This document shows, in pieces, positions 29,136 through 64,000 of a stretch of 64,000 nucleotides of DNA. The notes beneath the pieces were generated by a model. That model was not told the DNA's origin and ran no database searches. It worked only from the letters and a program-made list of their open reading frames with translations. Position 1 is the stretch's first letter. Every line of letters starts with the position of its first letter. This DNA is from an uncultured SAR86 cluster bacterium (GTDB taxonomy: Bacteria; Pseudomonadota; Gammaproteobacteria; Magnimaribacterales; D2472). Location of the stretch: assembly GCA_902509965.1 (NCBI GenBank), contig CABWZP010000003.1, positions 1 to 64,000 on the forward strand, given 5' to 3'. The translations under genes were made by a program, and so were the position numbers.

Positions 29136-29484
29136 TGGTGGAGGCGGCGGGAATTGAACCCGCGTCCGCTAATCCTTCAGCCTAACTTCTACATGCATAG
29201 CTCACCCAATTAGCTTTTTAACTTTTGTGACCCGAGGAGCAGGGTACTAAAGCGAGCTTGATTAAGTTTAACCAAACTGTGTCCAAGCAACACAACTTGG
29301 CTAGACTATGTAATTTGCCGATGCTTCAAACCATAGTCAATTTTTGCATCGGTTAGCATTAAGCTGCTAAAGCGTAGTTGTCGTTATTTGCAACTAAATT
29401 TTTTGTAGTATGTTTTACAAGAATTACCACAATCTTGGCATGCGCTTCGGAGTCCAGTAGAAACGTCGAACCCTGTTCGCCCCC
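29136..29484 (-). ncRNA. ssrA: tmRNA, one-piece, tag ANNDNYALAA
   Basis: Minus strand starts GGGGGCGAACAGGGTTCGACG and ends AGCGGACGCGGGTTCAATTCCCGCCGCCTCCACCA; acceptor ends pair; tag ORF 29391-29359 GCAAATAACGACAACTACGCTTTAGCAGCTTAA. Confidence 0.97.
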
Positions 29485-61245: not shown

Positions 61246-61704
61246 ATGCATATTGAATTTAAGTGGAAGACTTTTGATGAGCTTACGACTGATGAATTAT
61301 ATAAAATTATTCATCTTAGACAGAAAGTTTTTATTGTTGAGCAAAACTGCCCCTATATTGATGCAGATTATGCAGATCAACAAGCAAATCATCTACTAGT
61401 TCTTGAAGGTAAAAATCTCATAGGCTACCTAAGAGCTTTTGAGCCAGGGTATAAATATTCAGAATCTTCCATTGGAAGAATCATTATAGATCTTGATTAT
61501 AGAAAAAAGGGTTTAGGTGAAAGGATAACAAGAGCAGGCATTTCTTATCTATTAGAAAAATTTCCTAATGATAATATTACTATTTCAGCACAATATAGAT
61601 TACTAAGTTTTTATAATAAACTTGGTTTTCTTGAGAGAGGCAGTGTATATCTCGAAGATGATATTGATCATATAGAAATGTGTCTAGAATGCTTCAAGAA
61701 ATGA
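61246..61704 (+). CDS. elaA: ElaA-family GNAT acetyltransferase
   Basis: LYKIIHLRQKVFIVEQNCPYIDADYADQQANHLLV. Confidence 0.88.
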   Translation: MHIEFKWKTFDELTTDELYKIIHLRQKVFIVEQNCPYIDADYADQQANHLLVLEGKNLIGYLRAFEPGYKYSESSIGRIIIDLDYRKKGLGERITRAGISYLLEKFPNDNITISAQYRLLSFYNKLGFLERGSVYLEDDIDHIEMCLECFKK

Positions 61705-61757: not shown

Positions 61758-63737
61758 ATGATACGAAAATATCTTTTAATCTTCTCCCTTAGTTTCATAA
61801 TTGTTGGATGCGGCGGTGGATCTGAGACAAATCCTATCACTGTTGAAGTAACTATGGAATCAAGCGCCGAAGTTGTTCAATATAATGAGACTTATACAAT
61901 TTCATGGACTTCTACTGGAAGCCAATGCTATGCAAGTGGCTCATGGAGTGGGGAGAGACCTGTTTCTGGGAGCGAGACATTTACTGCAAAAACTAACGGT
62001 CAGGTTGGTTATGGTATGGAGTGTAGAAAAAATAATATTTTTGCACAAGCTCAAGCAGTTGTAACTTTAGAGAAAGATTTTATTAATAGCTTTGATTTTA
62101 AAGATGAGGATATTATAGAAGTACTTTCCATAGATCATTCTGATGGGAGTAGGCACAAAATATCGAGTCATCAAGTAGGTGATTTTAATAATGATGGCTC
62201 TCAGGATATGTTGATTGCATATAGAGTAGACGATCCAAGAGACAATGCTGAAGATCTGCATCCAAGATTTTTTCAAATTCTTGGAGGAGATGAACTTACT
62301 ACATCAGAGTTAATTTTAGATGGATGTTCTTCAGGAGAAATGATGACTACCCTTGATTTTAATCTGGATGGAGTAGTTGATCTTGCAGTTTTGCCTACAA
62401 AATCAGTTAAAACTATATCAGGTGAAGCAGTTGATTCTAATATCTGCTTTTTTCAAGGCTCAGAATCTGGACTAGATGTAACATCTTGGAACTCATTGGA
62501 TTATATTGATAATTCATCCACTATAGATCTTAATAACTTTGCAGTAACTTCTATAGATCCTGTTGATATTAGTGGAGATGGCTATCTAGATTTACTAATG
62601 TGGGCTAAAGAAGGCAATAATTCAACAGCAGGACTTCCATTCTATATAGTCGCAAATACAGCCTCGAATGCATTTGTTCAATTAAGTACAGATTTTATTA
62701 ATCTTGATCCATATCTTCCAAGCAAAGGATGTTCACAAGATATTTTATTTCTCTGTAGTTGGCAGGATTTTTATGGTACCTCTCAAATTTATTTTGATGA
62801 AGGCATCTCAATTGATTTAATTGGATCAGCCTGTAATGAAGATTTATCTATATGTTCTTATACAAGTTTTAAAGAAAGATATGATGAAGGGAACGATTAT
62901 AATTGGTCAGCTGCTTCACCAGATGCATTAACACCGTCTGTAAACTCTGGACAGTCATATTCAAATAAAATCTCAATTGTTGATAATAATGAGGATGGTT
63001 TCTACGATATTTTCTTACTTGAGAATAATACAAAATTCTCAGTATTTGAAAGAGTCATTTCTGGAATGAACACTCAAGATACAGGAGACTTCCTTTCATT
63101 ATTGTCTTCATCAGTTAAATTTACTGATGATTGGATTTTATTAGACTTAGATTTAGATAATGACTTTGATTTACTTGCTCCCATTGATTGTTATGAACAA
63201 CCATGTAACAACAAAAAGTTTCATACATATAACAAATCTTTTTATGAATCAGATGTATCTACATCTGCAGGTGATATTACTTTTACAGCATCACAAGGTT
63301 CAACAATAATAACTGTTAATGACATTGAGCATGGTGCAAACTATGGCCAGCTGGTTACTTTTAGTGGAGCAGAGGGTTTAGGCGGAGCCATTACAGCTGA
63401 AATTTTAAATGGACAATTCTCTATAACTTCAACTCCTTCAGTTGATACCTATACCGTTGAAGTATCTACTGGGGCTACAGCAGAGGATACAGGAAATGGC
63501 GGTTCTGTCGTAGTTGGAACTTATGTAGAAACTACATATATTTGGTCAGAAGAGGACGTATCAGCAACAATTAATTTTCCTGGTAAAACTATTAATACCC
63601 TTTGGCTTGATTCAGATGGCGACAATGATATAGATGTAATTTCTATTTCAGAATCAAGAAGTGTTGTTGCAGGTACAAACATCCCTATAAGCTCTACTTA
63701 TACAATATATCATCACAAAAATGATTCTCTAAGATAG
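61758..63737 (+). CDS. FG-GAP/VCBS-type beta-propeller lipoprotein with an inserted phage-tail-like (FCCH-like) domain
   Basis: Lipobox IIVGC; six Asp-rich motifs (e.g. GDFNNDGSQDMLI, LDFNLDGVVDLAV, DSDGDNDIDVI); insert ITVNDIEHGANYGQLVTFSGAEGLGG...DTGNGGSVVVGTY. Confidence 0.75.
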   Translation: MIRKYLLIFSLSFIIVGCGGGSETNPITVEVTMESSAEVVQYNETYTISWTSTGSQCYASGSWSGERPVSGSETFTAKTNGQVGYGMECRKNNIFAQAQAVVTLEKDFINSFDFKDEDIIEVLSIDHSDGSRHKISSHQVGDFNNDGSQDMLIAYRVDDPRDNAEDLHPRFFQILGGDELTTSELILDGCSSGEMMTTLDFNLDGVVDLAVLPTKSVKTISGEAVDSNICFFQGSESGLDVTSWNSLDYIDNSSTIDLNNFAVTSIDPVDISGDGYLDLLMWAKEGNNSTAGLPFYIVANTASNAFVQLSTDFINLDPYLPSKGCSQDILFLCSWQDFYGTSQIYFDEGISIDLIGSACNEDLSICSYTSFKERYDEGNDYNWSAASPDALTPSVNSGQSYSNKISIVDNNEDGFYDIFLLENNTKFSVFERVISGMNTQDTGDFLSLLSSSVKFTDDWILLDLDLDNDFDLLAPIDCYEQPCNNKKFHTYNKSFYESDVSTSAGDITFTASQGSTIITVNDIEHGANYGQLVTFSGAEGLGGAITAEILNGQFSITSTPSVDTYTVEVSTGATAEDTGNGGSVVVGTYVETTYIWSEEDVSATINFPGKTINTLWLDSDGDNDIDVISISESRSVVAGTNIPISSTYTIYHHKNDSLR

Positions 63738-63740
63738 CTT

Positions 63741-64000
63741 ATGCAGGTTGTAAGACTCGTAAAAACCTCTGATCTTCAACAGGTTTCAGAGCTTATAAAG
63801 AAAACTGGAATTGGCATGACTACTATGCCAAAAAATAGAAAGGAAGTTCAAGAAAGAATTGCATGGTCTGTAAATTCTGCAAATAAAAAAAGCGCAAATC
63901 CAAATAAAGATACTTATCTATTTGTCCTAGAAAATGAAAAAAAAATTATAGGAATTTCAGCAATTTACACTTCTGTCTCAAAAGAAAAACCATCTGTATT
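63741..64000 (+). CDS. astA: Arginine N-succinyltransferase-like protein, N-terminal part (runs off window)
   Basis: Own translation: MQVVRLVKTSDLQQVSELIKKTGIGMTTMPKNRKEVQERIAWSVNSANKKSANPNKDTYLFVLENEKKIIGISAIYTSVS; open to the window end. Confidence 0.75.
   Translation, partial: MQVVRLVKTSDLQQVSELIKKTGIGMTTMPKNRKEVQERIAWSVNSANKKSANPNKDTYLFVLENEKKIIGISAIYTSVSKEKPSV

Follow-up and report, generated by a model that had tools for sequence, protein, structure and literature searches.

Phages that take up host genes are familiar, and the domestication of whole phage tails is also known. Less common, and unusually clean as a case, is a single tail module inside an unrelated host lipoprotein whose site is still empty in the sister genus. 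In this work, we describe such a case in the SAR86 cluster, which is among the most abundant uncultured bacteria of the ocean. It appears to be an exchange of modules between phage and host, known in kind and cleaner than most, and a literature search judged by titles returned no account of this module capture. The case ties SAR86 to the podophages that surround it and offers a testable hypothesis on what an abundant nozzle module binds.

The closest described system is the podophage nozzle protein (family phrog_3287, like P22 gp10, T7 gp12, SU10 and Pa223). For SU10, a published report (PMC9509320) describes a tail tip formed by nozzle domains that sit as insertions between the blades of the propeller. 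Our locus shares with these proteins an 88-residue module, its order of strands and its placement as an insertion in a protein of propeller type (putatively so for the lipoprotein), whereas the rest of the lipoprotein is unrelated, belongs to a cell protein of FG-GAP type and is no part of a virion. The closest solved fold is that of the phage endosialidase beta-barrel (PF12195; phi92 and K1F), which the work on K1F (PMC12632334) presents as one of three polysialic-acid binding sites and as a hotspot of host discrimination. Here the comparison is one of fold, the insert scoring far under the Pfam cut-off and being no enzyme. The E1_FCCH domain (PF16190) resembles the insert by a weak profile match, but the insert stays under the cut-off and lacks the ubiquitin-activating enzyme context. 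Finally, the six Asp-rich motifs of calcium type in the predicted lipoprotein are like those of FG-GAP/VCBS repeat propeller proteins, from which it differs in falling under the Pfam cut-off and in bearing a foreign insert.

The window, that is, the whole stretch of DNA analyzed, covers 64,000 nucleotides of a SAR86 contig (CABWZP010000003.1), and the features around the lipoprotein gene are listed in table 1. As the original prediction had described, the open frame of this predicted lipoprotein holds six Asp-rich motifs. The pattern D-x-[DNSE]-x-[DN]-x-x-x-D occurs exactly six times (residues 142, 200, 270, 409, 463 and 618); in 5000 composition shuffles it occurred 0.08 times on average and at most twice. 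FG-GAP_3 (PF13517) matches the protein with E 7e-5 and 23.7 bits (cut-off 26.9). The N-terminus carries a lipobox-like IVG-C at residues 15-18, and the protein would be a lipoprotein of the outer surface with its lipid anchor at Cys18. Matches of the lipoprotein in large proteins of the family are confined to residues ~3-105. Many other proteins of the family, several of them ~2000 residues long, contain this N-terminal Ig-like domain, which is apparently a widespread surface module of SAR86. The structure prediction proposed as a check turned out to be informative in part: in the AF2 model the insert is reliable (pLDDT 87-97) and the Ig-like domain moderate, while the putative propeller part lies mostly below pLDDT 50.

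Table 1. Features of the lipoprotein gene and its neighborhood, in window coordinates
Feature	Coordinates	Strand	Basis
Upstream GNAT acetyltransferase (ElaA type), conserved neighborhood	61246..61704	+	Similar ORF upstream at most orthologous loci listed
Whole lipoprotein gene, 659 aa	61758..63737	+	Open frame; orthologues in 4 more genomes of the genus, ~64-74% identity
Signal peptide and lipobox IVG-C18	61758..61811	+	Sequence; Cys18 invariant across genus alignment
N-terminal Ig-like beta domain, residues ~25-104	61830..62069	+	AF2 strands, pLDDT 65-85; matches in large SAR86 proteins
Asp motif 1, DFNNDGSQD	62181..62207	+	Motif scan
Asp motif 2, DFNLDGVVD	62355..62381	+	Motif scan
Asp motif 3, DISGDGYLD	62565..62591	+	Motif scan
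Asp motif 4, DNNEDGFYD	62982..63008	+	Motif scan
Asp motif 5, DLDLDNDFD	63144..63170	+	Motif scan
Phage nozzle-type module, residues 503-590, between Asp motifs 5 and 6	63264..63527	+	Profile, phage homologues, model, junctions
Asp motif 6, DSDGDNDID	63609..63635	+	Motif scan
Downstream arginine N-succinyltransferase (AstA type), start	63741..63998	+	3 bases past lipoprotein stop

The insert is 88 residues long and sits in mid-body, its limits falling within 3 bases of those first proposed. The original prediction took it for a recurring structural module of marine phages, and the homology bears this out: it is 55% identical over 89 residues to the "stabilization protein" of phage DSL-LC04 (E 7e-20). 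At least 597 IMG/VR viral stretches encode the module (597 of 600 confirmed by profile scan), and among the matches listed the nearest phage domains are 57-61% identical to the insert. A profile HMM built from 81 phage domains and no host sequence aligned to the lipoprotein along the whole module, with 105.9 bits (E 4e-29 at Z=1e6). Since the best of 400 shuffled sequences reached only 8.3 bits, the match is not due to chance. With hhalign, insert and nozzle alignment matched over 92 of 92 columns, with phage rows also included in the insert-side profile. The presence of the insert and its kinship to phage proteins are thus established. A PHROGs search with the insert alone gave weak matches only (E 0.15), and the whole lipoprotein had no match to phrog_3287, so that only the module is shared with the nozzle protein.

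In the IMG/VR loci that we read, full-length copies place the module near residue 100 of a protein of ~617-778 aa, mostly between a strand ending in DITPIR and the sequence QINxG. All three module-bearing phage proteins tested matched phrog_3287, a virion structural family, with E from 1e-63 to 1e-95. An AlphaFold model of one of them, L041 (32 sequences, pLDDT 85.5, pTM 0.85), matches the solved nozzle or hub proteins of podophages Pa223 (E 5e-27), VP1, SU10, P22 (gp10) and T7 (gp12). The main home of the module is the podophage tail nozzle or hub protein. Several of the solved matches have 470-520 residues, ~100 fewer than the module-bearing phage proteins, which suggests that the module may be an additional piece in the phage family too. 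One more copy lies on a 53,352-base contig binned with a genome of the SAR86 family (G045:C4, L128-L130), which also carries genes for terminase, portal, tail fibre, primase and methyltransferase. We rejected this match as a further host gene, the module being in the nozzle protein of a phage contig, and regard the contig as a candidate SAR86 podophage.

By both profile and Foldseek comparison, the solved folds nearest to the insert are those of the endosialidase beta-barrels of phi92 and K1F. The profile match had E 0.0035, and Foldseek aligned the insert to 4hiz with probability 1.00 (E 0.0033, rmsd 3.5, 26% identity, 97 columns). PF12195 itself reached 12.5 bits against the lipoprotein, far under its cut-off of 35. 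The suggested label of FCCH-like was borne out only as a weak resemblance: PF16190 matched the lipoprotein with E 0.025 and 15.1 bits, below its cut-off of 29.5, and the fold match is to the endosialidase barrel. A prophage version of the module, in G311, does pass the E1_FCCH cut-off. In the model, the insert consists of strands 507-511, 517-522, 532-536, 553-561, 564-568 and 586-590 and a helix at 547-550; their order is that of the phage domain (strands 102-106 to 181-185) at a constant offset, phage rows being part of the alignment behind the model.

The insert is carried by all five genomes of this SAR86 genus, the other four in the GTDB-based collection being FRAM18_bin308 (SAR86B), AG-390-J15, AG-319-N19 and FRAM18_bin311, all of them SAR86 cluster bacteria. 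The whole lipoprotein used as query against genome contigs gave no match, and the genus alignment retrieved four SAR86 records. An AstA-type gene marks the orthologous site in both SAR86 genera. At this site, before AstA, ten orthologues from the sister genus of the same family have 581-590 residues and no insert. With the insert set aside, their alignment crosses the junction with no gap larger than one residue, and no remnant of the module was found at the empty site. Upstream of AstA in other genera there are different genes, so that the lipoprotein had no outgroup copy for comparison.

Among 203 genomes of the order, the module was confined to the five genus members, a single phage contig and a single OppA protein. 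Wider samples, with 369 genomes from the class and 399 from the phylum, added only two carriers, G311 and G859, which we rejected as cellular carriers because the matches are in prophage-like structural genes; these samples held no cellular carrier outside such genes. Because the sister genus is without the insert and no cellular carriers appeared outside SAR86 in the samples, the insert is neither a conserved part of the lipoprotein family nor a domain of cellular proteins alone. The domain capture first proposed is therefore favored by the distribution and by the empty site, and we consider it well supported by these sequence comparisons that the insertion in this genus would have arisen by capture of a phage module. 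The insert was probably added in this genus and then kept by selection.

On the whole, the best explanation, which we judge to be rather probable, is that a phage nozzle module was captured, kept and used as a surface ligand-binding module. In the ancestor of the SAR86 genus, ~264 bases of the tail-nozzle gene of a marine podophage would have entered a loop of the FG-GAP-type lipoprotein in frame. The stretch encodes a compact beta domain, which in phage is likewise an insertion in a propeller-type nozzle protein, and the host has kept it under purifying selection. Displayed at the surface, the module would act as a ligand binder, its target probably being a glycan or some other component of the envelope similar to what the phage tail tip touches, and the lipoprotein would thereby gain a new surface for adhesion or recognition. 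A ligand-binding role is the most likely one for the module, by analogy with its endosialidase-barrel fold and with the position that nozzle domains have in podophage tails. Because of the K1F barrel site and the tail-tip nozzle domains of SU10, it is reasonable to suppose that in phage the module may contact glycans of the cell surface or other parts of the envelope, and that its acquisition may have given the lipoprotein a surface for binding.

It is possible, although we find it doubtful, that the module is a neutral passenger, a self-folding unit tolerated in a permissive loop and conserved only because misfolding would spoil the lipoprotein. The insert is under purifying selection, like the rest of the gene: in six pairs compared by the Nei-Gojobori method, the insert had a dN/dS of 0.12-0.20 and the putative propeller part one of 0.10-0.17, at dS >1. 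Such equality is what a passenger would show, and constraint on folding, not a role in binding, may account for the low values. Nozzle proteins and one OppA likewise tolerate the module as an insertion, which points the same way. On the other hand, it was kept in all five genomes of the genus in spite of the small size of SAR86 genomes (~1-1.3 Mb) and of dS >1, which argues against a passenger.

An unlikely variant is that the module works as a mask or decoy: it would bind in cis the very surface receptor contacted by the nozzle of the donor phage and so block the adsorption or DNA entry of related podophages. The tail-tip position of inserted nozzle domains in SU10 is consistent with it, as is the phage contig that was placed in the bin of a genome of the SAR86 family. 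Proteins at the cell surface that prevent the entry of phages are in principle known, one example being CwpV (PMC4737114). However, our analysis knew of no phage of this SAR86 genus, and the nearest phage domains listed are only ~57-61% identical.

A second, candidate insertion was found in an OppA-type peptide-binding lipoprotein of G137, a genome from another family of the order (L131:1640-3493, C10:15639-17489). About 86 residues (150-235) are inserted in frame, with permease genes behind, and they score 24.9 bits against the phage-only profile. No such insertion is present in thirteen aligned OppA orthologues of the same genus, whose identity on the C-terminal side reaches 96%. As in our lipoprotein, the module would have entered a cellular lipoprotein of this order in frame, but the host protein and the module subfamily are different and only one genome carries it. 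This distant version is 26% identical to the window module, and the searches made found no close phage relative of it. For these reasons the G137 insertion, known from a single 67%-complete assembly, is most likely an independent event, and it may point to a recurrence of such captures within the order. We think it quite unlikely that SAR86 repeatedly takes tail-tip modules into lipoproteins, of FG-GAP type and OppA, as surface binders that compete for receptors against phages. If true, this would be an anti-phage strategy built from the phage's own tail parts.

The capture of a phage module also has to be weighed against the reverse direction or a common source, in which an old cellular beta domain was taken by phages and lost in the sister genus. 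On the best tree, the host modules of the five genomes group together as a clade (100/100) with a long stem (0.94), adjoining L041 within the phage modules, which makes phage modules their nearest relatives. The AU test on the 89-column tree, however, did not reject a position of the host modules outside the phage group (p 0.34), leaving the tree undecisive. The insert and the rest of the host gene have about the same third-position GC, so that composition gives no sign of a transfer: either enough time has passed since the insertion for it to adapt, or the donor was of similar composition. The direction from phage to host is therefore drawn from the distribution and the empty sister-genus site, and not from the composition and phylogeny that had been proposed as checks. 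As the module occurs at hundreds of phage loci but in hosts only in one gene family and one OppA, as the class and phylum samples held no cellular carrier outside prophage-like genes, and as the empty site shows no remnant, the reverse direction is very unlikely.

For the lipoprotein, a chimera of host and phage reads is in practice refuted: the window genome does consist of 48 contigs at 82% completeness and one congener has a broken frame, but the junctions are identical across genus genomes whose inserts diverge by ~26% in amino acids, two carriers come from the AG- series and are probably single cells (such names being, we presume, typical of single-cell genomes, though one of the two is labelled MAG), and the breaks of the congener reach into AstA and look like base-calling indels.

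The congener in question is FRAM18_bin311, in which both the lipoprotein and AstA genes contain frameshifts (L158; G043:C1 524939-527822). We rejected a pseudogene, since the adjoining AstA is broken too, and attribute the breaks to sequence errors, probably base-calling indels of the assembly. Elsewhere in the window, a tmRNA gene with the tag ANNDNYALAA lies at 29136-29484 on the minus strand.
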